DNA from: Lachnospiraceae bacterium
Lineage (GTDB): Bacteria > Bacillota > Clostridia > Lachnospirales > Lachnospiraceae
Direction of reading: 5' to 3'
Assembly: GCA_022647575.1 (NCBI GenBank)
Contig: JALCKY010000003.1
Span: forward strand, 207,001-271,000
Length of the DNA: 64,000 bases
A program made the translations under genes and the position numbers. The notes beneath the pieces were generated by a model. It did not search any database and had not been told where the DNA came from. It saw only the letters and a program-made list of their open reading frames with translations. Shown piece after piece: positions 44,224 through 63,590 of this stretch; position 1 is the first letter of the stretch, and every line of letters begins with the position of its first letter.

Positions 44224-44257
44224 AAAAAGCAGGCAGCGGATTTACTGCCTGCTTTTT
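44224..44257 (+). terminator. Rho-independent terminator
   Basis: Stem AAAAGCAGGCAG/CTGCCTGCTTTT with an 8-base loop and T tract after the zinc-ribbon/DUF4190 gene. With A-rich flanks it may also act on the convergent lipase transcript. Confidence 0.9.
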
Positions 44258-44296: not shown

Positions 44297-45574
44297 TCAA
44301 TGGCTGGCAGCCAGATTCCCGGCAATGGTTCTTTCTCTGTTCTGATATTCATCCGCGCAGGTTCTGCCCGCGTCGATGTACTTTCTCAGGTCTTTCGAGG
44401 AATCTTCCAGCCCATTTGCCGTCTGCCAGAGACTGCATTTGATGGCGCCTGCCGCAGCAGACCGGAACTGCAGCCTTCTCTCGATATCCCGTACGGTTCC
44501 CGCATCAGAACGGATCCGCAGCGCTTCGGACGTCAGGCGGCTCAGTTCTTCATTTACCGCTGATGGCTTGATCATGAAATGAACATTTCCGATATAGCGG
44601 TCCCGGCGTTCTTTAATCCAGTCGGACCAGTGAATAAAGATATCCTGCATATGGACCCATCCGTCGTAGATAGTCTGTATTCCGGGGACGCCGGGAATCC
44701 AGTGCCAGCGCGGAAGAGCAAAAATACTCATGTCAATGTACTTGCTGAACGGGCCGGACCAGACAGACCATTCATCCTTACGATCCGATATGACATTTCC
44801 ATGCTCATCAAATGTGACGTTATGGGTATCATGGCGCCAGACCATATTGAGCCAGTCATGGTCAGACGGCGTATTCGCATGAATGGTACGGTTATCCGCA
44901 GTCGGAACCATATAGAGCAGCGTGCCGACAACACTCCACTGGTAGTGAGTCAGGTATCTCTGGGCTTTCATGATGTCTCCTGCATGTTCGAGCAGGTATT
45001 TTTCCGAATAACCGGGTCCGTCCAGGCTGACGCACTGATCAATCTTATCCCGCATGGCATCCGGAGCGGTAATGCCGGCATGTTCCGCCAGGTTTCCGCC
45101 GAGAGAATGTCCCGTAAAACCGAAATGATTGTATTCGTGCCCGTAACGATCCCAGATTTCCCTGGTATATTCCTGTGCCTTCTTCTGCTGCGGTGTCAGG
45201 GCATTGTTCAGAAGCCCGACATCGGAGAGTCCCCAGTCTTTCGCCAAATTCTCCGTGGTATCGCTTTCGCTTCCGCGGAAGGCAATCAGGGCATCTCCGT
45301 CCGCCGTGTCGATGGTGCAGGCATACATGCCGGATCCGTGTTCATCGTTGCAGATATTTTTAATGGACCAGTTCCAACACTGATCCCCGTTGGGCAATCC
45401 GTTAATGCGGTCCGTCAGATCCTTGATTTTGGAAAGTTTTTCCGCGGAAGCTCCCTCTGCTTCCATTTTCAGAAGTTCCCTCAGAGTATGGTGCCCTTCC
45501 ATAAAATCTGACTCATCAAAATCGAAATAAGCTATCTGCGATGCAATCAGCATCTGATCGTCTGAATAACTCAT
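44297..45574 (-). CDS. Mbeg1-like lipase with C-terminal helical T7SS targeting region
   Basis: 425 aa. The N-terminal 1-300 is a lipase-like alpha/beta hydrolase (DUF2974/Mbeg1-like), with the nucleophile S157 in TGHSLGGN and a conserved ALIAFRGSES strand. No signal peptide. The C-terminal 85 residues (from about 340) are helical, with a tryptophan at the turn (KCSLWQTANG), and end in a YxxxE motif (Y410-E414), a type VII secretion signal. This is the reverse of LXG toxins, where targeting comes first, and matches the layout of the S. aureus T7SS lipase TslA. It overlaps the lipoprotein gene by four bases. Secretion and lipase activity are inferred. Confidence 0.8.
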   Translation of the reverse strand: MSYSDDQMLIASQIAYFDFDESDFMEGHHTLRELLKMEAEGASAEKLSKIKDLTDRINGLPNGDQCWNWSIKNICNDEHGSGMYACTIDTADGDALIAFRGSESDTTENLAKDWGLSDVGLLNNALTPQQKKAQEYTREIWDRYGHEYNHFGFTGHSLGGNLAEHAGITAPDAMRDKIDQCVSLDGPGYSEKYLLEHAGDIMKAQRYLTHYQWSVVGTLLYMVPTADNRTIHANTPSDHDWLNMVWRHDTHNVTFDEHGNVISDRKDEWSVWSGPFSKYIDMSIFALPRWHWIPGVPGIQTIYDGWVHMQDIFIHWSDWIKERRDRYIGNVHFMIKPSAVNEELSRLTSEALRIRSDAGTVRDIERRLQFRSAAAGAIKCSLWQTANGLEDSSKDLRKYIDAGRTCADEYQNRERTIAGNLAASH

Positions 45575-46296
45575 ACCTGATTACCTGCCTCTTCCGCAAA
45601 GTCTGTTTCCTTCGTCTGAAGCTGTCCTTTGGAAAAGCGTATTTCCATAACCGGAGAATCCTTTACCAGCTGGTCATACTCGTCATAAATGCCTGCGTTC
45701 TGTCCGAAATATTCTTCAACCTTCTTCAGCGTCTCTTCATCCGTTACGGTCAGACGGATGGTCCCGCTTAAAGCGGGTTCCTTCTGCACGGCTGCTTCGA
45801 CTGCCTGATAGACTGCCCGGGCATCCCTGTCCGCCGGACAGTAATGAAGCATCAGCAGGAAACGGTCCGATGGCTTGATGCCCATGAACTCTTCCGGAGT
45901 CATGCCGGCATTTGACGAGGCTATCGATTTGCTGAGCGGTTCCGCTTTCAGAAAATAATAGCCGGGAAGAATCCCCAGTTCTGCCGACATTTTTTCTTCC
46001 ACGTCAGCACTGACCCGGGCAGCGACATACTCATCTTCGATATAAGTTCCGCCGCGGTCCCCTGTGCATTTGAAAAGGACTTCGGGATACTCTTCCGAAT
46101 AGGCCGTAACTTCGTATTCATTTCCGAAATAATCACTGCCATGATACTGTGCCAGATAAAAGGTTTCGCCGTATTTTGCCGCAAGCATGTCCAGTGCCTG
46201 CTTCTCGAACTTCTCCCTGTCAACTGCACAGCCTTCCATGCCGCCTGCCGCTGCCATGATCATCACCCCCAGAATGATTCTTTTCCATGTTTTCAT
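45571..46296 (-). CDS. Lipoprotein, possible immunity protein for the T7SS lipase
   Basis: 241 aa. A signal peptide with a lipobox-like GMEGC (cysteine near residue 23), then a mixed alpha/beta domain with KYGETFYLAQYHG and a C-terminal TDEETLKKVEEYFG. I recognise no family. The gene lies between the WXG-like gene and the lipase gene, overlapping the lipase start by four bases. In the TslA system of S. aureus the lipase is neutralised by a lipoprotein (TilA) on the cell surface, so the same role is suggested by position and lipid anchoring; sequence relationship to TilA was not tested. The lipobox is weak but acceptable. Confidence 0.75.
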   Translation of the reverse strand: MKTWKRIILGVMIMAAAGGMEGCAVDREKFEKQALDMLAAKYGETFYLAQYHGSDYFGNEYEVTAYSEEYPEVLFKCTGDRGGTYIEDEYVAARVSADVEEKMSAELGILPGYYFLKAEPLSKSIASSNAGMTPEEFMGIKPSDRFLLMLHYCPADRDARAVYQAVEAAVQKEPALSGTIRLTVTDEETLKKVEEYFGQNAGIYDEYDQLVKDSPVMEIRFSKGQLQTKETDFAEEAGNQV

Positions 46297-46313
46297 CGTT
46301 CACGCCTTCGCAC

Positions 46314-46619
46314 TCATCTCTGCAGAATACTCAGAAGAGCCTGTTCGGTCCGGTAGTTTCTTTCAGCAGATTCTTTCAAAGCCTGTGATTCGGAGATTAG
46401 TTTCTGCCCCTTCTTTTTCAGAAGAAGTACATGCCTTCTTCCTTTTATGACATATTCCCTGCCGGCTTTTCCCTTCCACAAAGATGCGAGGTTTTCAAGA
46501 ACGTCATTTTCGGAATCTGCCGATCTGAGAAGACTGCTGCCGAGTGATTCCAGTTCCCTGGCATCCTCCAGCGTCTTCCGATAATCCATGAAGATTTCGT
46601 TTTCATTCGACTGTCCCAT
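46314..46619 (-). CDS. WXG100-like helical partner protein of the lipase cassette
   Basis: 101 aa from ATG 46619 (GGAGAC site); the open frame runs 19 codons further upstream without a start signal. It is all-helical with the turn LASLWKGKAGREY, a WXG motif near residue 48, and a basic second helix. Small WXG-like proteins encoded next to T7SS toxins act as secretion partners (TlaA proteins for TslA, Lap proteins for LXG toxins). First gene of the three-gene lipase cassette, 17 bases ahead of the lipoprotein gene. Confidence 0.75.
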   Translation of the reverse strand: MGQSNENEIFMDYRKTLEDARELESLGSSLLRSADSENDVLENLASLWKGKAGREYVIKGRRHVLLLKKKGQKLISESQALKESAERNYRTEQALLSILQR

Positions 46620-50831: not shown

Positions 50832-51833
50832 TTATCCCCCTGACAGCACTTTCTCGAAATGCTGATAATCCTTAAGGCTGCTCCAGTCTCCGCCCCAGCT
50901 GAAGCCGTGTTCCGAAAAGACCTGATAGGCAGTATCGTCATGTGTAATGACATGCGGCTCAGCGGCAGACCGGTTCGTTTTATACGGTTCCGCATTGCTG
51001 TGATAGACGGTTGCCGTCCCGTCATCGGAAAACAGGACGTACGGATTCTCCATCGGGTTCAGATCGATGGCATAGCCCATGGCATGATTGGAAAGATTCG
51101 CGGAATTGGTTGCCTTCCGGTAATTGAAGCAGGATGTGTTGTCTGCTTCAACCGAAGCTTCATCCGTGCTGATTCCCTCGCCGGTCCAGTAATTGTCCAC
51201 CAGATGCATCTGACAGATCTGGTATCCATCCTGAAACAGTTCCTGAAAAATCTGCAGGACGTCCTCTGTCAGTCCGGCATTGACAATCATTTCCCCGACT
51301 TCAGCCTGACCGTCATAATTCCTGAAGACCATTTTGAGATAGCGAAGATCCGCCAGGGAAATGTCATCATTTTCCCGATAAGATTTCCCGTTGATCCGCT
51401 GATAGACGTCATCGTCCACTTCAATCGGCACCGCCGTGAAATAAAGTCCGGGGTTGGAAGCGTTGAACTGATTTTCCGGAATGACTGTTCCTGCCTGCAG
51501 CCCGGAAATGTCCAGAATATACTGGCTGGACGTACCGGTCGAAGTCTGCGAAGCTTCACCCGAAGCATTCGCCTCAGATGCACCCGAGTACTTCTGCCCG
51601 GAGATATCCGCAGAATTCTGACTTAAAACATCCGCCGGATTCTCGTTTCCGCCGGCAGACAGCGATGCAGACAGATCCGTCTGACTTACATTTTCACTGA
51701 CTGCTTCGGAGGAGGCCGCTGCTGCCGTCTTTTTAATCTCCGCAAAACGCTTGACCATAAAAAGAAGAAGCACCAGAATGGCCGCTTCACAGATCAGCGA
51801 AAAAACCATCAGGTACTTCTTCGACTTGTTCAT
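50832..51833 (-). CDS. Membrane-anchored M15 family peptidase (second copy)
   Basis: 333 aa, same layout as the protein at 4.1 kb: anchor helix (9-28), Ser/Ala-rich linker, M15 domain with SNHAMGYAIDLNP and the final KDYQHFEK. The catalytic domains are clearly close relatives, while the linkers differ. Expected to trim peptidoglycan outside the cell. It lies 22 bases after the zinc-ribbon/glycan-binding gene and directly before the TPR gene. Confidence 0.9.
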   Translation of the reverse strand: MNKSKKYLMVFSLICEAAILVLLLFMVKRFAEIKKTAAAASSEAVSENVSQTDLSASLSAGGNENPADVLSQNSADISGQKYSGASEANASGEASQTSTGTSSQYILDISGLQAGTVIPENQFNASNPGLYFTAVPIEVDDDVYQRINGKSYRENDDISLADLRYLKMVFRNYDGQAEVGEMIVNAGLTEDVLQIFQELFQDGYQICQMHLVDNYWTGEGISTDEASVEADNTSCFNYRKATNSANLSNHAMGYAIDLNPMENPYVLFSDDGTATVYHSNAEPYKTNRSAAEPHVITHDDTAYQVFSEHGFSWGGDWSSLKDYQHFEKVLSGG

Positions 51834-51855: not shown

Positions 51856-52911
51856 TCATCCTGCCGCGTAAGGTGTTATTTCAGAAATACAGCAGTCGGC
51901 ATCCTTGCCGCTGTAGACAGAATCAATCGTAAGAATCAGGGAATTTGCCGGAATCGGTTCGCTGAATACGATATAATGATCGATCTCCGCATCCGTGAAA
52001 CTGAGCTGGTACGTCTGCCCGGCAATATCAAGAGTCATGGCCTGCGGCCGGTTGTTTTTGGCATACAGTTCCGGCGTACGCCAGTTTCCGAGTTTGCATT
52101 GGATATACTTGATATTCAGCGTCTTCGGATAATTCAGCTGAAGACGCTCTCCGACTCCGTCGCCGGAGGCACCTTCCTGCCAGGACGTAACCGGGTCTCC
52201 GTCACCTGCCTTGATTGGTGCATTGTTATACTGCGGATCCGTCTGATGCAGCTCCGATGTAGCAGCACCGGAGGAAGCCTGGGTCGGCCACATGCTGAAA
52301 ATGTCGCCCGGCTGAGCATCCGTGACATTGACGCTGATCTGCGAAAGATCTGCCGGCTGTGAAACATCTGCCTGGCTTTCGACAGAAGCTGCAGGAGCGA
52401 CAGAAGCTGCCGTACTGTCCGGTTCTGAAAACAGGGCTGAGGCTGTACTTAAAGCAGCACTTCCGGAAGCTTCCGAAAGCGATGCGCCCGAATTTGTTTT
52501 TACCGTCGACGGCTGTCCCGGGAAAGCGACAAACCGGACAATAAAAAAACCAATCACCGCAATTGCCGCACACTCCAGCGCGATGATGGCATATTTCCAT
52601 TTCGAGTGGTTTCCTGAAGGCTGCGGCGCAGGCTGGCGATAATACCCGGAATCATCTGCGGCGCCGTTCTGATAAGAATTTTCCTGCCGGTATGCCGGTC
52701 CGCTGTTATAAGACGCTCCATTGTCGTAAGACGATCCGCTGCGGGAAGATCCGCCGGCATACGGTGTATCCTCCGGCTGGCTCTGCCTGTTATTCAGAAG
52801 AACGGTTCCGTCATCATCGGCCGGCGTATCCTCTTCGACTTTCGTACCGCAGTTCGGACAGAAAACCGTATCATCGGACAATTCTGTCCCGCATTCAGGA
52901 CAATACTTCAC
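51856..52911 (-). CDS. Zinc ribbon - TM - discoidin-like (NADase-type glycan-binding) protein
   Basis: 351 aa: a zinc ribbon (CPECGTELS...CPNCGT, 4-23), a Tyr/Gly/Asn/Ser-rich cytosolic linker, a transmembrane helix (about 108-128), a Ser/Ala-rich spacer, and a C-terminal beta-sandwich with GDGDPVTSWQEGASGDGVGERL, the mark of the discoidin-like NADase-type glycan-binding domain. Likely holds or senses surface sugars. Six bases after the DUF4176 gene, linking the T7SS operon to the surface module. Confidence 0.87.
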   Translation of the reverse strand: MKYCPECGTELSDDTVFCPNCGTKVEEDTPADDDGTVLLNNRQSQPEDTPYAGGSSRSGSSYDNGASYNSGPAYRQENSYQNGAADDSGYYRQPAPQPSGNHSKWKYAIIALECAAIAVIGFFIVRFVAFPGQPSTVKTNSGASLSEASGSAALSTASALFSEPDSTAASVAPAASVESQADVSQPADLSQISVNVTDAQPGDIFSMWPTQASSGAATSELHQTDPQYNNAPIKAGDGDPVTSWQEGASGDGVGERLQLNYPKTLNIKYIQCKLGNWRTPELYAKNNRPQAMTLDIAGQTYQLSFTDAEIDHYIVFSEPIPANSLILTIDSVYSGKDADCCISEITPYAAG

Positions 52912-52917
52912 TGTTTC

Positions 52918-53217
52918 TCACCCCTCTGGTTTTTTTTCTTTTTCCCTGATTTTTTCCAGGGCTTCATCCGCGTATTTCTTAAACTTCATCTGTTCCTGAT
53001 CCTGGTAGCCAAGTGCAAAAACCTGCTCAATCTGGTTGCCATTGAACATGTACATTTTCTCCGGGCCGAGATATCCCTCCGGGAACACGCATCCGCAGTA
53101 ATCCCATATAGAATCCGGGTCATCGGCTTCCGCCTGGCACAGACCGATAATCATCAGCTTTTTCGTACTATTTTTTAATAATACCACGGTTCCGATCGGT
53201 AATAAACCTTCAAACAT
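52918..53217 (-). CDS. DUF4176 protein, T7SS-associated
   Basis: 99 aa from the second of two adjacent ATGs, which is best spaced from a strong AAAGGAGG site. The start LLPIGTVVLLKN...KKLMIIGLCQ and YCGCVFPEGYLG are typical DUF4176, a small family that recurs in type VII secretion loci of Bacillota. The function is unknown; a cytosolic accessory or immunity role has been supposed. It follows the candidate effector gene by 42 bases, so immunity to it is an option. Confidence 0.87.
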   Translation of the reverse strand: MFEGLLPIGTVVLLKNSTKKLMIIGLCQAEADDPDSIWDYCGCVFPEGYLGPEKMYMFNGNQIEQVFALGYQDQEQMKFKKYADEALEKIREKEKKPEG

Positions 53218-53259
53218 CATAAACCTCCTTTAATTCTCTGTCTCTGTCCATTATATCAG

Positions 53260-54240
53260 TTAACCGAATAATAAGCTCCTGCATCCTTTCTTCGCCGCAG
53301 CAATCATGCCGGTGAAGTCAAGGGTGATGGTAAGGGAAAGACCGACACCGGCCGCAACAGCCACATGTGCAGAGACTTTTCCTTCGGAAATGCTTGCTCC
53401 TGCTTCTGCCGCAAATCCAACCATGGCACTGCCTTCTGCAGAAGCTTCCGCGCCGGCAAGATCCGCATGAACTTCTCCCGTTGCTTCCGCAGCCACGGCT
53501 TTGGCCCCTGCACTTGCTTCCGCACTCGGTGCGAAATTTCCGTTTTCATCAAATACCTCTGCCTTGGCTCCGGCTTCTGCTGAAGCAGAAAGCACTTTGA
53601 CATCGCCGCTTGCACCGGCACCTAAATTCTCGTCTCCGACATGTGCTTCCCCTTTTGCTTCCAGCACGCTGTACGAAGCTCCGGCTTTGGCATCGATCCG
53701 GGGATCGATGACCGGGATCCCGTTCTCATCATATTTCCATAACTGCCCGTCCGCTTTGGCATAGGCTGCCGCCGCACTGACGGCAACCGATGCACTCCCG
53801 TACTCGCCGGCGATGCTCTTCTTCCAGGCGTCTGCCTCCGCTTCCGCACCTGCATGAAAACTGCCGTCAAACGACTTCTGATTCTCTGAAGAGATGTTTC
53901 CGTCGTTTTGTCCGTTTCCTCCTGTCCGGCCGTCCTGTCCGTCCCGGCTGCCTTTTACTCCGCTCAGCCTCTCCAGAACGCCGGCTTCCGTCTGCCTGTA
54001 GAATTCCAGAATCCGGGAAAGACTGCTGTGCATGCTCCGTGTGTTTTCATTCTGTGCCTGGATGTCTTCGGAAACGGCTCGGATGCCGGAAAGGATTGCT
54101 TCGCTTTCCGCGATTTTGAAAGGAAGACGGTCTCCGATGCCTGCGACTTCTTCCGAAATGGATGCAAGCTGATCTGCTGCCCGCATCTGTTTATCCAGAA
54201 TCGGTGCGATTCTGTTCTGACTGATTACAATCTTCGGCAT
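53260..54240 (-). CDS. Candidate T7SS effector with helical N terminus and Ala/Gly-rich repeat domain
   Basis: 326 aa without a signal peptide. Residues 1-95 are helical and polar, as in T7SS targeting regions; a Gly/Asn/Asp linker follows (96-115); then about 200 residues with alternating Ala, Glu, Gly and Ser in beta-like repeats (KAGASYSVLEAKGEAHVG, SASAEAGAKAEVF, AEASAEGSAMVGFA). The hydrophobic stretch VAAGVGLSLTITLDFTGM is near the C terminus. I know no toxin family with this body; the C terminus could insert in membranes. It lies directly after three WXG-like genes, where LXG-type toxins usually sit. Secretion and toxicity are inference. Confidence 0.7.
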   Translation of the reverse strand: MPKIVISQNRIAPILDKQMRAADQLASISEEVAGIGDRLPFKIAESEAILSGIRAVSEDIQAQNENTRSMHSSLSRILEFYRQTEAGVLERLSGVKGSRDGQDGRTGGNGQNDGNISSENQKSFDGSFHAGAEAEADAWKKSIAGEYGSASVAVSAAAAYAKADGQLWKYDENGIPVIDPRIDAKAGASYSVLEAKGEAHVGDENLGAGASGDVKVLSASAEAGAKAEVFDENGNFAPSAEASAGAKAVAAEATGEVHADLAGAEASAEGSAMVGFAAEAGASISEGKVSAHVAVAAGVGLSLTITLDFTGMIAAAKKGCRSLLFG

Positions 54241-54300: not shown

Positions 54301-54615
54301 TTACTGAACTGTCCTCTCCGTCGCAATGCGCAGGCTTTCTTCTTCGGCTGCCTTGGTGGTTTCCGCAATCCTGCGGATGGCATTGGAAATCTCGCGGATA
54401 TCTCCTGCCGTTTTTTTCACGTTCTCGCAGAGTCTGTTTCCCTTCAGGAGATACTGTTTTGCACTGTCGCTTTTCCAGGCACTGCTCAGGTCGTCAAAGG
54501 CATCCTGCATGTCGCTGTCGGATACTCGTTCGACCCGTGCCGCAATCTCATCCAGGGCATTGGCCTGGCTGATTGCCTGGCTGTAATTAAACAGGATTTC
54601 CGTCATTGTCTTCAT
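54301..54615 (-). CDS. WXG100-like small helical protein
   Basis: 104 aa, helical hairpin with the turn DDLSSAWKSDSAKQY (WxS in place of WxG) and a long charged second helix. It resembles the lipase-cassette protein at 46.3 kb (both have a YxxKG just after the turn). Probably a secretion partner of the effector gene 60 bases downstream. Confidence 0.8.
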   Translation of the reverse strand: MKTMTEILFNYSQAISQANALDEIAARVERVSDSDMQDAFDDLSSAWKSDSAKQYLLKGNRLCENVKKTAGDIREISNAIRRIAETTKAAEEESLRIATERTVQ

Positions 54616-54637
54616 CTCATCATCTCCCGTGGTTCCG

Positions 54638-54955
54638 TCAGATAATCATTTCCGATTCCAGTTGGTTATTGACCGCTTCTGCTTCCGATTCCGCCTCACT
54701 GTAAAGTCCGGCCATCACCAGAAGATCTTTGGGGTGTTCTTCCAGACGTCTTTCCAGTTTTTCGATATCATCTTTCAGCTGGCTGTATTCCCGCCGGTCC
54801 TGATCGCCCGCTTCACCGATCCAGTATCCGCCTGTCTTTTGTGAAACAGATTCAATCGTATCGAAATGATGTCTGATCTCACTGATCAGTCCCGAAATTT
54901 CCGAAGACTTGTTTCTCAATATTTCCGGTGTTACCCGAAGTGTGATTTCGGCCAT
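54638..54955 (-). CDS. WXG100-like small helical protein
   Basis: 105 aa: helix, GGYWIGEAGDQDR turn with WxG, and a second helix with DDIEKLERRLEEHPKDLLVMAG. The N terminus MAEITLRVTPEILRNKS resembles the two WXG100 proteins at 63 kb. AGGAGG precedes the ATG. Third of three tandem WXG-type genes in this block. Confidence 0.85.
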   Translation of the reverse strand: MAEITLRVTPEILRNKSSEISGLISEIRHHFDTIESVSQKTGGYWIGEAGDQDRREYSQLKDDIEKLERRLEEHPKDLLVMAGLYSEAESEAEAVNNQLESEMII

Positions 54956-54966
54956 TTTCCAACCTC

Positions 54967-55269
54967 CTAAATTTTGATGGATGCAACGATTCCGGAGACC
55001 TTGCTTTCACAGTTTTCATAATCGCTGCGTGCCTCACTTGTTGCCGACGTGATATCTGAAAGAATGCTGATCATGTCTTCCAGTGAATTCAGGTCCGTCT
55101 GGAAGGCATTCATAAAGGCTTCCTTCGCCTCGCCTTCCCACATGCCGTTCAATTCACTCACAGCATTCTGCAGTTTCTTCCCGTCGTCGGTGAGACCCCT
55201 GATTTCCGTCTGGATGGATTCGACATCCGATTTCATCGTTCCGGTATTGGTTTCAATCCTGTCTGCCAT
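54967..55269 (-). CDS. WXG100 family protein
   Basis: 100 aa from ATG 55269 (AAAGGAG eight bases upstream; an in-frame GTG at 55278 overlaps that site). Helical hairpin with LNGMWEGEAKEAF at the turn, the full WXG100 signature. It is 11 bases ahead of the next WXG-like gene. Confidence 0.88.
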   Translation of the reverse strand: MADRIETNTGTMKSDVESIQTEIRGLTDDGKKLQNAVSELNGMWEGEAKEAFMNAFQTDLNSLEDMISILSDITSATSEARSDYENCESKVSGIVASIKI

Positions 55270-55282
55270 GTTCTGCACTCCT

Positions 55283-55696
55283 TTATGGTTTCACTGTTTT
55301 CAGATGCTCAATTGTAAAATGAATCATATCCCTCTGCCAGTCCGGGCCTCCCGGCGGACCCACAACAATTTCAGGAACCCTGCGCGTAATGAAACCGTGA
55401 AGAAACACCTTCCTTTTTGCTTCTGCGATTTTTTCCGTCGTTCCTTCTTCGGTATGCCGGTAAATGAGGGCAATCTCTTTCGATGCCGTGCACATCCGCA
55501 GCGTCCGGATCATTTCCTCCGACAGGTCATCTTCGACATGCCTCAGGACTGTCAGGCATTCTTCCATTTCCGAAAATTTTCTGAGCGAGGAGGCAGCCGC
55601 ATACAGCTCTTCCTCTGCCCTCCGAAGTTTCCGGGAGCTTTCCCGCAGCCGGTCTCCTGCTTCGCCGATTCTTTCAGGCTGAACTTTCATTCTCAT
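55283..55696 (-). CDS. Helical protein of the T7SS operon
   Basis: 137 aa from ATG 55696 (AGAGGA site); an upstream ATG at 55717 has no site. The N-terminal 80 residues are strongly helical and basic (KVQPERIGEAGDRLRESSRKLRRAEEEL split by one Gly), then a short Pro/Gly-rich part with EIVVGPPGGPDW. No WXG motif. Unrecognised; its start resembles T7SS helical partner proteins, while the tail is unusual. Confidence 0.7.
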   Translation of the reverse strand: MRMKVQPERIGEAGDRLRESSRKLRRAEEELYAAASSLRKFSEMEECLTVLRHVEDDLSEEMIRTLRMCTASKEIALIYRHTEEGTTEKIAEAKRKVFLHGFITRRVPEIVVGPPGGPDWQRDMIHFTIEHLKTVKP

Positions 55697-55798
55697 TTTT
55701 CGTCCTCTGTATTTCATATTCAGAGTCTATCACACGGCAGCCGTTCCTTCGGAAAATCCGACAGGCGGTGCGTCAACGGCGACAGACTGCATTTCCGG

Positions 55799-56047
55799 TC
55801 AGACCAGAATCAGTTCCGCGCCCACCGTGATGCCGTAATCCCTGAGGCATCGGTCCTTCCGGAACTGCAGTCCCCGGTCAATGGAACCGAGAATCATCTC
55901 ATGGATATCGCCGTTCAGAGGCGCATGTTCTTTCTGGGCAATCAGTTCCGCGATTTCTTCAATCAGTTCGGAAACGGGGGCTTTTTCTTCCAGGTTCATG
56001 TTGTAGACTTTCTCAAGTCCCGGAACAGTTACGTTTACGACAATCAT
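55799..56047 (-). CDS. YukD/EsaB-like ubiquitin-fold protein
   Basis: 82 aa, beginning MIVVNVTVPGLEKVY and ending DYGITVGAELILV, the beta-grasp pattern of EsaB/YukD. These small cytosolic proteins are conserved accessory parts of the type VII system. The gene overlaps the preceding one by four bases (ATGA). Confidence 0.87.
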   Translation of the reverse strand: MIVVNVTVPGLEKVYNMNLEEKAPVSELIEEIAELIAQKEHAPLNGDIHEMILGSIDRGLQFRKDRCLRDYGITVGAELILV

Positions 56048-56757
56048 TTTTTATCCTTTCCGAAGCACCGGTTCAGCATTCTGACAGCCGATCCTTCCGT
56101 AGCAATTTCCGCATTGGTTCCTTCTGCATCCGACGAAACGGCAAGGTCTGCCGCCGTGCGGTGAAGCAGGACATATCGCCCGGCATATTCCTCATTTCCC
56201 GGAACAGCGGCTGCCAGACTCAGGAGAATGTTTCCGTCCTTCAGGTCTCTGTCAAAACTGCCGTCCGTGAAATAGCCTTCAAAGGCACTCCGGATATTAT
56301 CGAACAGATCCTTCTCCAGCTCTTCTTTATCTTCATCTTCCAGCGGAAATTCCGGCAGCCTTCCGGTATCCTTCAGGTGCCCGAAGAACTCTTCTTTCCT
56401 GCAGGAAATGACGCGGTACTCTTCCGCGTTCCGGTCCGAAACATCCTCGATCAGCACCAGTCCGTTCTTCGTATCATAAGCTGTCATATCCGGAATGCAG
56501 GGATCCGCACTCAGTACATACACGACGCGCTCCGTCTGATGAATTCCTTCAAAGAGCTGTCCCTTCGGGCCGAACGGCACGAAAATCCCGTCCTTCTGCG
56601 TGATGATCTGCCGGCTGAAAAGGCTCTGAAGAGCCTGCAGGTATTCTTCCTGACGGATCTCCCCCTTCCGGGAAAAACCGGGCAGCTTCCGGTCATCAGC
56701 ACCGGTCATCAGAAGGATGTATTCCGCCGGCGAAAGATAGAAATAATTCTCATCCAT
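56044..56757 (-). CDS. Unrecognised acidic protein of the T7SS operon
   Basis: 237 aa, soluble, acidic middle (LEDEDKEELEKDLFD). The first 60 residues (LSPAEYILLMTGADD, then QEEYLQALQSLFSRQIIT) look like a winged-helix start as in the EspG-like/DUF5081 group of secretion chaperones, but the match is by eye only. It is coupled to the YukD-like gene and follows the LytTR gene after two bases, so it belongs to the secretion system core operon. Confidence 0.7.
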   Translation of the reverse strand: MDENYFYLSPAEYILLMTGADDRKLPGFSRKGEIRQEEYLQALQSLFSRQIITQKDGIFVPFGPKGQLFEGIHQTERVVYVLSADPCIPDMTAYDTKNGLVLIEDVSDRNAEEYRVISCRKEEFFGHLKDTGRLPEFPLEDEDKEELEKDLFDNIRSAFEGYFTDGSFDRDLKDGNILLSLAAAVPGNEEYAGRYVLLHRTAADLAVSSDAEGTNAEIATEGSAVRMLNRCFGKDKK

Positions 56758-56759
56758 CT

Positions 56760-57473
56760 CTATTTCTCTCCTTTGAAGGCCGGCTTGTAGCTTCTGGAAA
56801 CCGGTACCCCGATCTTATTTTCCAGTTCAATCGTATTCTCCGTGAAAATGACTTTCCGGATTTTGCTGACATTCACAATGTAGCTGCGATGGCAGCGCCG
56901 GAAACCGGAAGGCAGTTTCTCTTCAAGGGAATCGATCGTGTCATAAAAAGCATATTCATCCTTCTGCGTACGGACAAAAAGCTTTTTGTCCCTGGCTTCA
57001 AAATAATAAATCTGCCCGTACGGAATCATGATTTTTTCTTCCCTGGTATCGACGGCAAATGTGCCTTCCGTCTCCCCGTTTCCATATTTCTCAAAGTAGG
57101 AGGCCATGAATTCCCGGTTGATCCGGTTCAGGTCTTCCGCCCGGTACGGTCTCAGCAGCAGAGAATCCGGCGCTACGCCGGGCTTCAGATATTCCAGCGG
57201 TGATACGGAAGTATCGGCAATCAGCATCAGCTGGGAAGAAAGATATTTCCTGCGGAATCTCCTGAGCATTTCGACGGACTGTCCGCTGCGGAATTCATAA
57301 TACAGCAGGTTCAGGAGCGTCTTTTCGCCGGCAATCTGCTCAAACGCATCATCGGAATCAGCCGACTGGAAAGTCATATCCTCGTCCTTCCGGACGGATA
57401 CGATTTTCCAGCAGGACTCATGCAGCAGGTCACGCTCCTTCTTATTTTCATCAACTGCGGCGATTGAAATCAT
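56760..57473 (-). CDS. LytTR response regulator with degenerate receiver
   Basis: 237 aa. The C-terminal LytTR DNA-binding domain is intact (IYYFEARDKKLFVRT, SGFRRCHRSYIVNVSKI). The N-terminal receiver keeps the acidic pair (VDEN) and the switch threonine (LIADTSV), but the phospho-aspartate position reads LLYYEFRSG and the usual lysine is arginine (LLRPY). It therefore probably works without phosphorylation. Sits inside the T7SS operon, 24 bases after essC, so likely a dedicated local regulator. Confidence 0.87.
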   Translation of the reverse strand: MISIAAVDENKKERDLLHESCWKIVSVRKDEDMTFQSADSDDAFEQIAGEKTLLNLLYYEFRSGQSVEMLRRFRRKYLSSQLMLIADTSVSPLEYLKPGVAPDSLLLRPYRAEDLNRINREFMASYFEKYGNGETEGTFAVDTREEKIMIPYGQIYYFEARDKKLFVRTQKDEYAFYDTIDSLEEKLPSGFRRCHRSYIVNVSKIRKVIFTENTIELENKIGVPVSRSYKPAFKGEK

Positions 57474-57497
57474 AACGGCCTCATTTTCCTGTATTCT

Positions 57498-60400
57498 TTA
57501 TCCGCGGTACATCGGTATGATCAGTTTCTCCAGACGTGCCTGTTTGTCATCAGACGGAATGATTCCGATTCCGGGTTTCGTCGTCTTGTCCTGATCCTGG
57601 TATTTGACATTGTCAAAGGCAAATACCGACTGGTCCGACATCCTTCCGCCGAAGCGGATGCCGGAGCGGTATTCCTTCATGCTCCGGAACGCCTGGTAGC
57701 CTGCCAGTTCATTCTGATCCGCATCCCTGACTTCGGCAAACAGGAAAATGTTGTAGAACCTGCCTTTGTCACAGATGGCTTCCAGCACATTGATGCTCTG
57801 GAAGGCCATGGATTCTTTGTTATACGCCTCTCTCAGGAAGCTGCCCGCATCCGCGATGAAAAGATCGATCCGCCGAAAGGCAGATGCCGCTTCAAAAGTC
57901 TCTTCTTCGGAACATTTATCATTGAGGCACTTCTTCTTGACGGCAACCCTTTCCTGCATGGTTTCCAGAAGGTATTTCATCAGATTGTAAATGCCCTGGC
58001 CGTCAGATACCCTCTGAATCGAATGCTCGGAAGCCATTTTTTCATAGTCGCTGGCTCCGATTTCCGCGATATGCACTTCGTCTCCGCGGTCCAGACAGGT
58101 CAGCATCAGGTTCTGCATGAAGACGGTCTTGCCGCTTCTCTTGGTTCCCGTCACCAGGAAGACAAAGTTACGGAAGAGATTGATGGAATACAGGTTAGCG
58201 TACTCGGCATCGTAGCCGGCCGGAAGCAGAACCGGATCTTTCAGCAGCGTCTGATATTCTTCCAGAGCCGTCATGTCTTCCCGTACCGGCTTTTCCGGAA
58301 TGCATGGGATCGGACGTGCCGATGCGCCGGCATAATGTTCATTCAGCTCTTTGACTTTTTCGCAGATCAGGTCATTGCGCTCCGGACTGCCTTCCGAACG
58401 TGCCGCCAGCGCCGTCTGGAATTCGATGAACTTATCGCCGTAGCTGATGAGTCCTCTGCCTTTGACATTGCTTTCCGGCACAACATCCGGGCGCAGGATG
58501 TGAAGGATATCGCCGTATGCGTAAATGTCCTGCATTTCCAGACAGATGCCGGTGCGGAAGTTCTCAGCCAGGCGGCTCGGAAGTTCATTCATGCTGAAAC
58601 CGGCCGCGGATACCAGAAGGAAGATTCCGTAACCGACGCCTTCCTTGGCCAGCTGCATCATAATCTCTTCAAACTGCTCTCCCGTCTTTTCATGGAAGCT
58701 TCCGTAATTGTCGATTACGATCAGCACTGCCGGAATACTCCATCCGTTGCGGTTGACATAGTCCTCGAAATTGGTACCGGTAAACAGCTTCTTGCGTTCT
58801 TCGATCATTTTACCGATCATTGTGAAGAACTTGGAAATGCGGTCTGTCTCTGTATCATTTTCGTCCATGATTCCGCCGACGTGCTTCAGTCCGCTGAAAA
58901 CAGAAAGCATGCGGGCACTGAAATCAAGACAGTAGACATTCAGCTGTGCCGGAGTGTACGTCATGCACAGGGAATAGACCACCGTCTGCAGGAAGGTGGA
59001 TTTTCCCGTGGCCACCGTACCGCAGACAACGTGATGCCCGCCGTTTGCAAAATCGACGCCGACCGGCATCTGGGCCTGGTTCTCTGGATCGTCCCCCATG
59101 CCGATCACAGCACTCAGGCGGAATCTCTTCGGAGCCTCCGGCCATTCTTCTCCGTTGAAAACCGTTGCCGTAAAGGCTTCCATATCTTCCAGATAAAGGA
59201 AATTCGGAAGCACCGGAAGCCAGAGCTGCTTCGGCTTTCCGTAGCCTGCCCTCTCCGCCGTATCCTTCAGGTAATCGACCACTGCCTCCAGCTGCGTCCG
59301 GGATTTGATTTCCGGAAGCCTCCTGCTTTCCCTGCCCGCTTTCCGGATCAGCTCTTCCGGCAGCTGATCGCCCGGCACCTGATTCTTCAGTTCCTTATAG
59401 ACGGAAATGAAATCAGCGACTCGGGTATTGTTGTAATGGTTCTGTTCAAAATCCGGATGCTGTGCCCGCACCCTGCGGTAGAAGTCATCCATGAATTCCG
59501 CATGTCCCATGAAGTCGAAGGACGGCGAGAGAATGTCTTCCGAAAGGTCCGCCTGCGTGCTTTCCAGGTCATCGATGAGTTCGGAAATCCATCTTCTCTT
59601 CAGAGCTTCCTTCTGTTTCAGCTTCGCATGGTTTCCGGCAAGATCCACCTTGCCCGTAGCTGAAAGCATCTGCGCAATCAGCAGGCTGTGGCCTCCCAGT
59701 TCCTTATCATAGGACGCGCCGGACCAGCCGGACTGGAACAGTTCGAAAATTTCGTCATTTCCCACCTGCAGATAGCAGCGGCCGGTCTGCGTCAGATAAG
59801 CGGCATCCGGACGGTGCAGCATGTCCATGGAATCCTGACGGTCCTGCACGCGCAGGCAGAGCCGGAATTTCGAATTGGCCCAGATATTTTCATCAACAGT
59901 TCCCGACGGACGCTGCGTGGCCAGAATCAGATGCACGCCCAAACTTCGTCCTACCTGCGCAACGCTGATCAGTTCCTTCATGAAATCCGGTTCCTCGCGC
60001 TTCAGTTCGGCAAACTCATCGATAATAATGAACAGATGCGGAATCGGCTCCGCCGCATCCCCGCTCTTGAAAAGGGATGTATAGCTGTTGATATTGTTGA
60101 CGCCGTATTCCGTGAAGATTCTCTGACGCCTGCGGTTTTCGCTCTTGATGGAGGCCATGGCCCTCTTCACCTGACTGCCGGAAAGGTTGGAAATCGCACC
60201 GATCATATGCGGCAGTTTTTCAAAGAGGTTCGCCATGCCGCCGCCCTTGTAATCGATGATGAAGAAACCGATATCATCCGGGCTGTAGTTGGCCGCAAGG
60301 GAAAGGATATATGTCTGCAGCGTCTCGGATTTTCCGGATCCTGTCGTGCCGGCGATCAGACCGTGAGGCCCGTGGTATTTTTCATGGATATCCAGATAGC

Positions 60401-62489
60401 ACGGAGCATTGCTGTTCTTGAAGCCGACCAGCGCCTTCATGGAAGAGACCATGTCCGCTTTCTTCCAGCGTTCTTCGGAATGGAATTCCTCCGGGCTCGA
60501 GATGCCGTACATGTCGAAGAAAGTCAGGACATTCGGAATTTCTCCTTCTTCCCCTGCCTCGGAAACCTTGATCTTGCCGAGTGCCCTCGAAAGGATGCGC
60601 AGCTTTCTGTCGTCCGTCCCGTCGAAATTGACCGGGGTGCCTGCTTCAATTCCCGTCGTCGTATGGTAAATGCCGTGGAATCGTCCGTCATTTTCCACGA
60701 TGCACTCGCAGGCGTTCGGAAGGTCCTTATAAAATTCGGCGAGCAGAATCGTGGAAAGGCCGATATCTGCCTTGTCCTCAAAGACATATTTGGAAATGAC
60801 CGATTCTTCGATCAGCTTCGGATCGGTTACGATCAGGATGTACTGGGGCTTCAGGACCGCGTCCCGCTTGCTCTGCACGTCTTCCATGCGTCCGCGGAAC
60901 ACCTGCGAAAGGGCGTAATAGACATCTCCCATTTCGTCCTTGTTTGTCGCAATGTAACGGATCTTCCGGTCTTCCGACCAGACATGCGGGAACCACATCA
61001 TGAAGTTCCAGGTGTCTCGGTCGGTATCATTGTTCTCATCATAGACGATGGCAATCTTCACGTCTGTGTAGCTGTTGGCCGTCACGATCTGTGCAATCAG
61101 ATCCTGCGCAACCTGAACGGCGCCTTTCCGGTTGGCACCTCCGACGATGCCGACCAGATGCTCTTTCCTGATATCTGCCAGCACCGGTACATTTTTCAGA
61201 ACCTTGTAGCTTTCCTGGATCAGGCGCGGCTTCTCTGCAAGCGAATCATTGATCAGCGTAAATTTTTCTTTCGGAATGGTGATCGGTACCTGGAAAGGAA
61301 TGTCCCCGATTCCCAGGCGGTAGCTCATAAAGTCTTCATGCGTGGCATTCCGGTTCCACAGAAGCGGAGAACTTTCATTCAGGCTGCAGCATTCATCGGC
61401 ACTGATATAGCGGTTCCGGAGAATGGTGCCGTTTTCCTCGTATTCACTCTGAACCTGATCCTTCATGCGGATCAGATATTCGCTGTAGCGTTCAAAACGC
61501 CTGTTCTCTCTTTCCTGCCTCTGTTTCTTCGTCAGCCGTACGTTCGCGACTGCCCAGACGGCACCGATTATGGCGGAGGAAACAGCTGTGATCATGCCGA
61601 TATACATGAAATAACCGGAAGAGGAGCCTCCCATCTTGCTGGCCATGACAGCCATCAGACTGCTCAGGACCATCGGAATCGCCATAGTCATGGCCGGTCC
61701 GACAGACATCATCAGCGGGATATCCTGTGTATCCGGCGGATTCGGCGGTGCCTCGATTTCCACCGGCTCGGAATTGATTTCACGGAAGTTGCGCGGTGCC
61801 CGGTGAAACTCAACCGGCTGTGCCGAACCTTCCGCACCTTCCGCGGCAAATGCATCAATCGCCTGCGGCGTCAGGGAGCCGAATTTCACGGTCAGTCCGT
61901 CGCGGTCATTGATGGCCAGCATATTTCCGAGATAAATCATATTCAGGCGGAAGACCCGGATGCTGTCGCCGTATCTCAGGATCGGGCTGCCGCTTACCCT
62001 TCGGAAGTTCAGATACGTTCCGTTCTTCGAAGTATCGGTCAGTCTGGCCTTTCCGTCTTTGATCTCGATAAAGCAGTGCCTGGTCGAAACGAAGTCCGTA
62101 CTCTGATAGCAGATATGGTTCGTCTCCGCGCGCCCGATTTCCAGTCTCTGGTTATCTCCCAGCTTGTACTTCCGGTATACGCTGAAAGGCCGCGACTGCT
62201 CAAAGGCCAGAATCGTGAACTGGTCCGCCGTGCGCGTATGGATATCCAGTCCGAGTCCGTCCCGTATGACGGCTTTCTCGCACCGGACGTTCTGCCCTCT
62301 CAGGATGATGTCGTATGCACCGCCCTTCAGCACCCAGTTCTCTTCTTCCTTTTCCAGATTCAGCACCAGATCCCTGCTGATCTGAAACAGGTCTTTCTGG
62401 ATCAGGACCTGCATCTGCCTTGCGCCGCGGTCCATCAGGACCACTTCACGGAATGCCTTCTGACTGTAAACGGAAAGAATCATACTCAT
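57498..62489 (-). CDS. essC: Type VII secretion ATPase EssC
   Basis: 1663 aa, somewhat longer than the S. aureus form. An N-terminal FHA-type region with RAETNHICY, VSTRHCF and SKNGTYL (about 115-160), two transmembrane helices (257-315), then three FtsK/SpoIIIE ATPase domains. Walker A motifs are GTTGSGKS (714-721), GTVATGKS (1157-1164) and GTKRSGKT (1449-1456). Only the first has a full Walker B (IIIDEFAEL, D824/E825); the second reads VIDNYG and the third IADAGS, so one active motor domain as usual in EssC. It drives export of the WXG100 proteins and effectors. EssA, EssB and EsaA are not in the window. Confidence 0.95.
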   Translation of the reverse strand: MSMILSVYSQKAFREVVLMDRGARQMQVLIQKDLFQISRDLVLNLEKEEENWVLKGGAYDIILRGQNVRCEKAVIRDGLGLDIHTRTADQFTILAFEQSRPFSVYRKYKLGDNQRLEIGRAETNHICYQSTDFVSTRHCFIEIKDGKARLTDTSKNGTYLNFRRVSGSPILRYGDSIRVFRLNMIYLGNMLAINDRDGLTVKFGSLTPQAIDAFAAEGAEGSAQPVEFHRAPRNFREINSEPVEIEAPPNPPDTQDIPLMMSVGPAMTMAIPMVLSSLMAVMASKMGGSSSGYFMYIGMITAVSSAIIGAVWAVANVRLTKKQRQERENRRFERYSEYLIRMKDQVQSEYEENGTILRNRYISADECCSLNESSPLLWNRNATHEDFMSYRLGIGDIPFQVPITIPKEKFTLINDSLAEKPRLIQESYKVLKNVPVLADIRKEHLVGIVGGANRKGAVQVAQDLIAQIVTANSYTDVKIAIVYDENNDTDRDTWNFMMWFPHVWSEDRKIRYIATNKDEMGDVYYALSQVFRGRMEDVQSKRDAVLKPQYILIVTDPKLIEESVISKYVFEDKADIGLSTILLAEFYKDLPNACECIVENDGRFHGIYHTTTGIEAGTPVNFDGTDDRKLRILSRALGKIKVSEAGEEGEIPNVLTFFDMYGISSPEEFHSEERWKKADMVSSMKALVGFKNSNAPCYLDIHEKYHGPHGLIAGTTGSGKSETLQTYILSLAANYSPDDIGFFIIDYKGGGMANLFEKLPHMIGAISNLSGSQVKRAMASIKSENRRRQRIFTEYGVNNINSYTSLFKSGDAAEPIPHLFIIIDEFAELKREEPDFMKELISVAQVGRSLGVHLILATQRPSGTVDENIWANSKFRLCLRVQDRQDSMDMLHRPDAAYLTQTGRCYLQVGNDEIFELFQSGWSGASYDKELGGHSLLIAQMLSATGKVDLAGNHAKLKQKEALKRRWISELIDDLESTQADLSEDILSPSFDFMGHAEFMDDFYRRVRAQHPDFEQNHYNNTRVADFISVYKELKNQVPGDQLPEELIRKAGRESRRLPEIKSRTQLEAVVDYLKDTAERAGYGKPKQLWLPVLPNFLYLEDMEAFTATVFNGEEWPEAPKRFRLSAVIGMGDDPENQAQMPVGVDFANGGHHVVCGTVATGKSTFLQTVVYSLCMTYTPAQLNVYCLDFSARMLSVFSGLKHVGGIMDENDTETDRISKFFTMIGKMIEERKKLFTGTNFEDYVNRNGWSIPAVLIVIDNYGSFHEKTGEQFEEIMMQLAKEGVGYGIFLLVSAAGFSMNELPSRLAENFRTGICLEMQDIYAYGDILHILRPDVVPESNVKGRGLISYGDKFIEFQTALAARSEGSPERNDLICEKVKELNEHYAGASARPIPCIPEKPVREDMTALEEYQTLLKDPVLLPAGYDAEYANLYSINLFRNFVFLVTGTKRSGKTVFMQNLMLTCLDRGDEVHIAEIGASDYEKMASEHSIQRVSDGQGIYNLMKYLLETMQERVAVKKKCLNDKCSEEETFEAASAFRRIDLFIADAGSFLREAYNKESMAFQSINVLEAICDKGRFYNIFLFAEVRDADQNELAGYQAFRSMKEYRSGIRFGGRMSDQSVFAFDNVKYQDQDKTTKPGIGIIPSDDKQARLEKLIIPMYRG

Positions 62490-62505
62490 GAGATCTGCCC
62501 TCGTT

Positions 62506-63099
62506 TCAAGCTTTTAATAATCGGATTTCCACTATCGCCTCGCCCAGCATCAGCCGGTCGCCGTTTTTTACGAATACTCCGCCAGGAGCAATTTCACTGC
62601 TGCGTCCGCCTCTCTGCAGGATAGTCCGGCAGCCGGAAAGACTGCGCGCACAGGCGTCCGCACCGTGCAGGAAAAGTTCGCAGTGATGTCCCGCGACGCC
62701 CCGGTAATTCAGGCACAGGCTGCAGTCTGCTCCCGCGCCCAGGGAAACCGGCGTTCCGAGATTGAACAGGTATTTTTTCCTCGATACCGCGCCGATTTCC
62801 GTCAGTTCCGCCATGACCGCCGGTCCTGAAAAACTTCCTGCCCGCGCAGACTGATCGGAATATGCCACATCAACCGGAACAGCCGGTCCTGCCCCGCGGT
62901 ATCCTGCTTCCGGATTGATCAGCGCCTGTGTCAGCATCTCATCTCTCCGCTTCTCACGGATCATTTCCAGTTCCTGCATTCTTTCCTTCTGGTTTTTCCG
63001 GATCAGGATTACCAGAATGAGAAATAAAGCAGCGCCGGCGCAGATCACTCCGATGCAGACGGCCAGATTGTCCCTGAAGAAATTCAGTATTTCTGTCAT
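62506..63099 (-). CDS. FHA-domain membrane protein of the T7SS
   Basis: 197 aa: a transmembrane helix (10-32), a charged coil, then an FHA domain with VSLGAGADCSLCL and AGHHCEL (about 115-190). FHA domains bind phosphothreonine. The conserved arginine of the first loop is replaced (SLGAG for IGR), so binding may be lost. Placed 16 bases before essC; it may be the local counterpart of the EssB-like scaffold, but no sequence kinship to EssB is visible. Confidence 0.8.
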   Translation of the reverse strand: MTEILNFFRDNLAVCIGVICAGAALFLILVILIRKNQKERMQELEMIREKRRDEMLTQALINPEAGYRGAGPAVPVDVAYSDQSARAGSFSGPAVMAELTEIGAVSRKKYLFNLGTPVSLGAGADCSLCLNYRGVAGHHCELFLHGADACARSLSGCRTILQRGGRSSEIAPGGVFVKNGDRLMLGEAIVEIRLLKA

Positions 63100-63150
63100 G
63101 ATGAATTCTGCTGCCTCCCGGCTTCAGTCATTTCCCGGAAATACGCCGAC

Positions 63151-63181
63151 ACGCCCGGAGCACGGAATCGCGTTCGGGCGT
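63151..63181 (-). promoter_or_regulatory. Hairpin between the WXG100 and FHA-essC genes
   Basis: Stem ACGCCCG/CGGGCGT with a 17-base loop in the 121-base gap, no T tract. It may stabilise the upstream WXG100 mRNA so that these small substrates are made in excess over the ATPase. Confidence 0.45.
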
Positions 63182-63220
63182 ATCAGAATCGTATGGGGAG
63201 TCGGAATACCGCTGAGCCAG

Positions 63221-63532
63221 TCAGACGATATTTTCTTTCAGAGAGCTTGCCGTCTGGGCATTGGCCTTTTCAGCTGCGGAATAGCCCTGAGCCATTTCCG
63301 TAAGGTCTTTCGAATGCTCATTGATCATCTTGTGGATTTTTTCCATATCGTCATTCAGGCCGTTCAGCTTGTTATAATAAGCCGTTGCTGCTTCGCCTGC
63401 CCAGGATCCCTGGAGTTCCTTGACAATATTGAGCATTTCCGTTGTATTGTTGCGCACCGCCGTACTGGAGGATGCGAAGTTCTGTGCTTCTGCCGTAAGT
63501 TTTTCCGGTGTGACTCTTAAATTTCCGTTCAT
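63221..63532 (-). CDS. WXG100 family protein (EsxA/B-like)
   Basis: 103 aa, helical hairpin with ELQGSWAGEAATAYY at the turn and a YSAAEKANA end. Full WXG100 signature; the second helix carries YNKLNGLNDDMEKIH. Secreted substrate and structural partner of EssC. 58 bases after the first WXG100 gene. Confidence 0.93.
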   Translation of the reverse strand: MNGNLRVTPEKLTAEAQNFASSSTAVRNNTTEMLNIVKELQGSWAGEAATAYYNKLNGLNDDMEKIHKMINEHSKDLTEMAQGYSAAEKANAQTASSLKENIV

Positions 63533-63590
63533 GATCTGTTCTCCTTTTCTATTTTCAATGGATGACTGGTTTTTAGGGTGTGCTTATGAA

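Follow-up and report, generated by a model that had tools for sequence, protein, structure and literature searches.

The nearest tested protein to the lipase described here is TslA of Staphylococcus aureus, which is antibacterial, was not required in a mouse abscess model and has a tested inhibitor, TilA (PMC10730906). Its targeting domain was described as sequence-reversed and as carrying a GxL motif (PMC10765036). Reverse lipases outside the type VII secretion system (T7SS) of the b type (T7SSb) are already in print, having been reported in 2024 at T7SSe (Neobacillus sp. 114) and T7SSg (Paenibacillus aquistagni) loci (PMC11217815). The known T7SS signal is bipartite, and its export arm, YxxxD/E, works with the WxG of a partner protein (PMC9600955). 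The locus compared here with these systems lies in a stretch of 64,000 nucleotides (the window) from a Lachnospiraceae bacterium (assembly GCA_022647575.1, contig JALCKY010000003.1, positions 207,001 to 271,000), where three minus-strand genes code for a small WXG100-like protein of the HEL family, a lipoprotein and a lipase (Table 1). Related loci and genomes are cited by L and G numbers.

These three genes very likely form a reverse-architecture T7SS lipase cassette, and it is probable that they serve as the effector, immunity and co-export genes of a neighbouring T7SS that is not of the b type. The initial annotation of the window had placed three open frames here, coding for a WXG-like helical protein, a lipoprotein and a GHSLGG lipase with a helical targeting part and a YxxxE motif at its C-terminus, and all of these elements were recovered. 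A gap of 17 bases separates the partner and lipoprotein genes, and the lipoprotein and lipase genes overlap by 4 bases. The lipase gene is followed by a convergent gene and a terminator-like repeat (13-pair stem with A and T runs, consensus match only). The distance from the cassette to the T7SS core is about 10 kb.

The N-terminal part of the lipase matched the Mbeg1-like family of Pfam (PF11187, residues 80-246, E = 1.8e-16) with 60.7 bits against a curated cut-off of 21.1, which places it within the family. In an alignment of 26 lipases, the window's included, S157, D185 and H248 were invariant, as were all six positions of GHSLGG. No signal peptide was evident by eye at the N-terminus.

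The last 96 residues of the window lipase by themselves gave no Pfam match, so the assignment of its C-terminal module rests on the family profile. This profile matched WXG100 proteins with E = 1.7e-9 forwards and 0.003 reversed, and HEL partners with E = 1.9e-7 forwards and 0.001 reversed; five column-shuffled profiles, run from the 20 written, gave E = 0.06 to 0.8. A PDB search placed designed coiled coils at the top of the list, EsxA and EsxB reaching E = 0.011 to 0.02; scores of this kind are thus due in part simply to the helical repeat. The tails of three relatives (L082, L087 and L093) scored above the Pfam WXG100 cut-off (27.6, 38.1 and 30.5 bits, respectively, vs 27.3). The YxxxE columns were the best conserved of the C-terminal domain, with the acid in 26/26 and the aromatic residue in 21/26 lipases, and the full WXG100 pattern HxxxD/ExxhxxxH, as given in PMC10765036 (see also PMC3935865), fitted 25 of the 26 tails. 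The aligned lipases were picked by length and neighbourhood after their tails had been seen, and these motif counts are not a blind sample; L074, cut at its 5' end, was left out. The shuffle control took all 75 lipases with a complete 3' end, and [FY]xxx[DE] was present near the end of 51 of them vs 13.1 +/- 3.2 (highest 24) in 200 shuffles. A chance YxxxE was ruled out by the column conservation, the fit to HxxxD/ExxhxxxH and this control. Since the profile matched far better forwards than reversed, and since the arm pattern is conserved, the most fitting reading of the C-terminal domain is a module of WXG100 type that runs forwards.

The profile of the small partner matched WXG100 proteins with E = 1.6e-10, and its W48 was invariant in 11/11 aligned homologues. 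WxG was found in nine of these 11 HEL partners and in all eight partners that come from lipase cassettes, with [FY]xxx[DE] in one of the 11 and YxxxE missing from seven of the eight. The tails of the lipases carry the arm in 21/26 cases and WxG in the turn in three, and a fourth (L058) has WxG elsewhere. Judged by their motifs, the tail and the HEL partner are complementary: the partner supplies WxG and the toxin the arm. The order HEL-lipoprotein-lipase was found in 8 of 27 loci (the window, L062, L063, L066, L070, L080, L081 and L097), with one extra gene in between in L081. This synteny and the complementarity of the motifs are the main argument for a pairing of tail and partner, short of proof. 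The single partner gene proposed initially holds for the adjacent cassette but not for the whole locus, where other WXG-type genes lie at 54301-55278 and 63221-63890.

A module of the same kind stands at the N-terminus of another protein of the window, a putative forward-architecture effector. It was recognised by eye first and then by the hidden Markov model (HMM) of the tail in a small set of open reading frames (E = 9.3e-6), and was missed at E <= 0.001 in the whole-genome search. The module (53950-54240) carries YRQTE at residues 81-85; YxxxE was present in 12/12 aligned forward modules and WxG in 0/12. When 299 genomes of the same family were searched with the tail alignment, 47 rows from 30 genomes were obtained, of which 10 had the module at the C-terminus, all in lipases, and 17 at the N-terminus of other proteins; the remaining 20 (small WXG-type frames, chance coiled coils and short frames that were not read) were set aside. 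No non-lipase toxin with the module at its C-terminus was seen among these 47 rows, the 20 set aside included in that number. Ala/Gly-rich domains form the C-terminal end of some of the 17 proteins with an N-terminal module, and one has a weak C39-peptidase-like match there. The tail and forward-module profiles matched each other with E = 1.2e-17, and with 3.2e-4 when the tail was reversed. The forward rows, the window's apart, had been picked by the tail HMM, and the value of 1.2e-17 is therefore partly selected, unlike the tail-WXG100 and tail-HEL matches. A HEL gene was located within 1.5 kb of 6 of the 12 forward proteins read, and DUF4176-like genes adjoin forward effectors in related loci (by eye). 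Genomes G210 and G239 also hold both forward and reverse cargo. The presence of what appears to be the same kind of module at either cargo end within one locus is new.

Relatives of the lipase are widespread. Mbeg1-like matches were found in 112 of the 299 genomes, most of the frames being about 350-450 amino acids (aa) long, and the best 78 loci were listed in a contig scan for lipase relatives. Pairs of lipoprotein and lipase genes are found in the T7SS loci of many Clostridia and Bacilli, and Faecalicatena faecalis is one commensal relative that has the cassette; many relatives come from gut samples, and others from Neobacillus and Oceanobacillus. The window lipase belongs to a shorter class (about 410-490 aa), in which a lipoprotein-sized gene lies directly upstream in most loci. 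A longer class, grouped by eye, comprises 24 proteins of 489-562 aa (Neobacillus, Bacillus, Ruminococcus and others). Their upstream gene is of lipoprotein size, and many of these loci also have small helical genes on the downstream side. In a quick tree, 66 reverse lipases and their kin were separated from 23 control lipases with a support of 100.

The linkage of these lipases to T7SS genes, called with small custom HMMs in flanks of up to about 8 kb, was also quantified. A T7SS gene was detected in the fetched flank of 44/49 tail-bearing lipases vs 7/26 tail-less ones (Fisher P = 5e-8; 75 complete proteins, 4 of 79 having been dropped as cut at the 3' end), the tail HMMs behind this split having been trained on many of the proteins that they classified. 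Two of the five tail-bearing exceptions (L056 and L064) proved to be T7SS clusters on a longer read (L171 and L172). Both hold WXG100 proteins, EssC, an FHA-like protein and a regulator-sized gene, and one of them also has YukD. Moreover, three lipases counted as tail-less in T7SS loci (L082, L087 and L093) do carry a canonical WXG100 tail. Among the distant tail-less control lipases, 0/23 had a T7SS gene within about 8 kb; one of 24 control loci (L054) was dropped, its lipase being missed by the pattern. These controls were hand-picked as short frames from the list of Mbeg1-like matches and form a separate distant branch, so the 26 tail-less lipases are the nearer control.

Two other arrangements were observed among the relatives. 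In L042 (6704-9542; a cassette as in L085, Coprococcus catus), where EssC is shorter, a 186-aa protein is encoded separately after the lipoprotein-lipase pair. Its start is similar to that of a 626-aa protein downstream, and the arrangement may represent a lipase whose LXG-like part is split. Tail-less Mbeg1-like lipases in frames of about 1470-2040 aa, with a lipoprotein-sized gene upstream, were found in L102, L104, L107, L116 and L130, the long frames of L107 and L116 being cut by contig ends.

The T7SS core of the window includes a LytTR regulator directly after EssC, and a Ser/Thr kinase with TPR repeats lies beyond the window edge. EssB/YukC (PF10140) and EsaA (TIGR03929) gave no match in the genome, which is 94.3% complete (EssA was not searched for); in 14 controls, PF10140 matched only B. 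subtilis and TIGR03929 matched four, above the cut-off in one. Given that neither EssB nor EsaA was matched, the locus does not look like T7SSb. The parts of T7SSe or T7SSj given in PMC11217815 are an FHA-bearing EssC, a kinase (with TPR in T7SSj), a PPM phosphatase, an Ig-like envelope protein, YukD and WXG100 proteins. Of these, the locus has the FHA-bearing EssC, YukD, a pair of WXG100 proteins and a TPR-bearing kinase; neither a PPM phosphatase nor an Ig-like protein was noticed in the vicinity of the window, and frames resembling both were seen by eye in related loci (L037/L171). Set beside these types by their part lists, the T7SS of the window resembles T7SSe/T7SSj, short of an assignment to either type.

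Additionally, the core (window 55283-63890; L036 3206-5377) gave no exact fit to the part lists of T7SSc-f and h-j given in PMC11217815. The order EssC, regulator-sized gene, YukD is similar in L171. The T7SS neighbourhood also holds a zinc-ribbon protein with an NADase_transloc F5/8 type C domain (51856-52911; PF25302, E = 1.3e-17), and a D-Ala-D-Ala carboxypeptidase-like protein (Peptidase_M15_4) is encoded near the cassette at 50832-51833. Beyond the window edge, reverse-transcriptase-like and transposase-like frames (L036 17113-19001, by eye) may be a group II intron and an insertion sequence.

The lipoprotein has a signal-like N-terminus, and its Cys23 stands in MEGC, a non-canonical lipobox. 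Its alignment was built from the upstream genes of 17 of the 27 loci, with several start sites set by hand; in the other 10 the upstream gene was missing, cut or different-looking. A signal-like N-terminus with Cys was found in 13 of the 17. In the 299 genomes, the lipoprotein gave 18 rows from 15 genomes. Six of the eight strongest matches lie beside a lipase and two in G131, where no lipase was matched, and the expectation of the initial annotation that this gene would occur only with lipase genes was borne out for the former and failed for the latter. Four of the other ten adjoin a lipase frame (G159, G025 and G188 twice), that of G147 lies near a lipase on the opposite strand, those of G187 and G033 have no lipase nearby, and three are weak, probably chance matches. 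Orphan immunity genes are known for TilA (PMC10730906), so lipoproteins without a lipase weigh little either way. The two homologues of G131 (L174 and L175) lie beside similar genes, a possible orphan immunity island. A profile of six homologues, with the distant L042 included, matched PDB 4gl6, a 'hypothetical protein', with E = 9.5e-37; the match of the 17-row profile without L042 was weaker (E = 1.5e-4). The lipoprotein is the probable immunity protein of the lipase.

Table 1. Features of the lipase cassette and of the T7SS neighbourhood (window coordinates)
Feature	Position	Strand	Basis or remark
Lipase gene, 425 aa	45574-44297	minus	open frame; Mbeg1-like alpha/beta hydrolase N-terminal, WXG100-type module C-terminal
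GHSLGG, nucleophile elbow, lipase residues 155-160	45112-45095	minus	sequence; alignment of 26 lipases
C-terminal WXG100-type targeting module, lipase residues about 330-425	44587-44297	minus	family profile
YQNRE, putative type VII export arm, lipase residues 410-414	44347-44333	minus	conservation in 26 aligned lipases
Lipoprotein gene, 241 aa	46296-45571	minus	signal-like N-terminus and Cys23; directly upstream of lipase in relatives too
Small WXG100-like partner (HEL family), 101 aa	46619-46314	minus	W48 invariant and WXG100 profile match
WKG turn motif, partner residues 48-50	46478-46470	minus	WxG conserved in family
Terminator-like inverted repeat, cassette end	44224-44257	listed on plus strand	between convergent genes
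DUF4176 protein, often with T7SS effectors, downstream of forward effector	52918-53220	minus	PF13780, E = 1.8e-29
Forward-architecture putative effector, N-terminal module of same kind, Ala/Gly-rich C-terminal domain	53260-54240	minus	
HEL-family partner of forward effector, directly upstream	54301-54615	minus	E = 2.2e-32, itself in query alignment
YukD/EsaB-like ubiquitin-fold protein	55799-56047	minus	PF08817 above cut-off
EssC-type ATPase, FHA and FtsK/SpoIIIE domains	57498-62489	minus	PF00498, PF01580
Two core WXG100 proteins	63591-63890, 63221-63532	minus	PF06013 above cut-off

Gene order, domain homology, motif conservation, T7SS context and a shared module, as found by computation, are consistent with a model in which pairing, export, phospholipase activity, toxicity and immunity are predicted for the cassette proteins. 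The last approximately 95 residues of the lipase would pair with the small protein encoded upstream, each supplying half of a WXG100-like heterodimer. The bipartite type VII signal would then be split between the two chains, with WxG on the partner and the YxxxE arm on the lipase tail, and EssC would recognise the pair, so that lipase and partner would be exported together. Once exported, the lipase would attack the phospholipids of rival bacteria. Protection of the producer would fall to the lipoprotein, which would be anchored on the outer side of the cytoplasmic membrane and bind the lipase domain. Another protein would be served from its N-terminus by a module of the same kind with its partner, the signal being read at either cargo end.

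A broader proposal, that a WxG partner and a YxxxE module constitute a portable heterodimer signal that runs in one direction and is fused to the front or the back of the cargo, could be right or wrong with equal probability. With a portable YxxxE module, reverse lipases would carry an arm of their own, supplying the arm not found in the TslA partners. If so, T7SS recognition would be independent of the position of the signal in the cargo. A rule that can be tested follows from the cassettes (the toxin bears the arm and the partner WxG), and a single locus with forward and reverse cargo bearing the same kind of module offers a natural pair for testing the effect of position. The cassettes would also suggest an immunity role for the lipoprotein family, a distant relative of which has a solved structure (4gl6) but is named only 'hypothetical'.

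Several observations weigh against the cassette model. HEL is not adjacent to the cassette in 19 of the 27 loci; the fetched flanks of the closest relatives (L055, L056, L057 and L064) contain no HEL gene, and in G148 and G210 the nearest good match is about 25-28 kb off, that of G210 lying directly before a forward effector, which it may serve instead. The aromatic residue of the arm is replaced by Ile or Cys in 5/26 tails, and when the bare [FY]xxx[DE] is used in place of the HMM the link to T7SS weakens (40/51 vs 11/24, P = 0.006). Short tail-less lipases (L086, L091 and L094) are also found in T7SS loci. In one genome (G131) the lipoprotein occurs without a lipase, and no signal peptide is seen in 4 of the 17 aligned homologues of the lipoprotein, an unexpected finding for a protein that would confer immunity at the surface; among the loci with HEL upstream, the middle gene of L063, L080 and L081 has none. 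The separation of HEL from so many cassettes, together with the ease with which profiles of long amphipathic helices cross-match, the modest scores of EsxA and EsxB and an export that is predicted only, would suit a tail that is a dimerisation or anchoring domain, with a lipase that is secreted otherwise or intracellular and a T7SS link that is coincidental, or a tail that binds the core WXG100 proteins. This was considered quite improbable, since the association with T7SS genes is strong and goes with the presence of the tail, the conserved residues follow the pattern of a T7SS arm, the reversed and shuffled controls match far less and the lipase shows no evident signal peptide. An ordinary member of the TslA/TilA/Tla family, with a reversed LXG-like domain and two Tla-like partners of which one was lost or moved, is a somewhat unlikely explanation. 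The plan is the same (GxSxGG lipase, helical C-terminus, lipoprotein and small helical partner; PMC10730906), and the longer class of relatives, grouped by length and tail, looks TslA-like, with [FY]xxx[DE] near the end in 22/24. However, there was no DUF576 match and none for EssB or EsaA, the partner lies upstream of the immunity gene, and the module matches WXG100 forwards and not backwards, a comparison in which TslA itself was not included.

The role of the lipoprotein and the target of the lipase were weighed in the same way. As a lipase-specific chaperone or a substrate-binding lipoprotein, the 241-aa protein would not be an immunity protein at all; the homologues without a signal peptide would stay in the cytoplasm, and the name of 4gl6 points to no function. 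This reading appears unlikely given the lipoprotein-like N-terminus of 13/17 homologues, the lipase-free copies in G131, as in known immunity islands, and a gene position that matches that of TilA (PMC10730906). That the lipase targets nutrients or an animal host instead of rival bacteria would agree with the gut origin of many relatives; it is very doubtful in view of the antibacterial activity of TslA and its dispensability in the mouse model (PMC10730906), and of the relatives in Neobacillus and Oceanobacillus. A dedicated adjacent lipoprotein also suggests self-protection, which argues against such a target. A cassette for an antibacterial lipase, its partner and its immunity protein is preferred here, its secretion, pairing and immunity being predicted from the genes themselves.

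Compared with the TslA-TilA-TlaA1-TlaA2 set of S. aureus (PMC10730906), the cassette shares an N-terminal GxSxG lipase, a helical C-terminus, an adjacent lipoprotein, a small helical partner and the T7SS link. The set is described as part of T7SSb, with a DUF576 lipoprotein, two partners downstream, an LXG-like domain with GxL and no clear arm in either partner, whereas the cassette belongs to an apparently non-b T7SS and has a lipoprotein without a DUF576 match, one partner upstream, a forward module and the arm on the toxin. The window lipoprotein did not match DUF576 (PF04507) at E <= 1; this profile was silent in the 299 genomes and in the 14 controls alike, and the search is uninformative on absence. 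A reversed LXG-like domain is not what the profile direction indicates, with GxL unscored and no LXG profile used. Thus, the mirroring of TlaA-TilA-TslA that was proposed initially holds for the overall plan but not for DUF576, EssB/EsaA, the number and position of the partners or the direction of the module, and a plain copy of TslA was ruled out by DUF576, T7SS type, gene order and module direction. One Neobacillus lipase, used as query for TslA-like proteins on plasmids, gave no match.

The reverse lipases of T7SSe and T7SSg (PMC11217815) are like that of the window in having a C-terminal targeting domain at a non-b T7SS locus, and no description of a partner, an arm or a shared module was seen for them. 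The Neobacillus loci found here (L100, L112, L124 and L128) are probably of the same class, although the proteins named in that paper were not compared directly; these relatives have 506-562 aa, whereas the window cassette belongs to the shorter class with HEL upstream. The suggestion that the reverse-domain class is wider than described was partly anticipated by those lipases. LXG toxins with Lap1/Lap2 (PMC9600955) likewise have WXG100-like partners, an F/YxxxD/E arm and a DUF4176 gene nearby, but their arm lies on the small partner Lap1 and their domain is N-terminal, whereas in the cassette the arm lies on the toxin and the domain is C-terminal. In mycobacterial T7SSa, PE-PPE and EsxB-EsxA are also helical-hairpin heterodimers with WxG and YxxxD/E (PMC9600955, PMC10765036, PMC3935865), although the arm of PE-PPE is on the small PE protein and the motifs of the cassette are distributed the opposite way. 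No description of an export arm on a reverse lipase, or of a module common to forward and reverse cargo, was found in the mainly open-access literature available. Three features are new with respect to all these systems: a WXG100 module that runs forwards, a toxin that carries the arm while its partner carries WxG, and a module placed at either cargo end.

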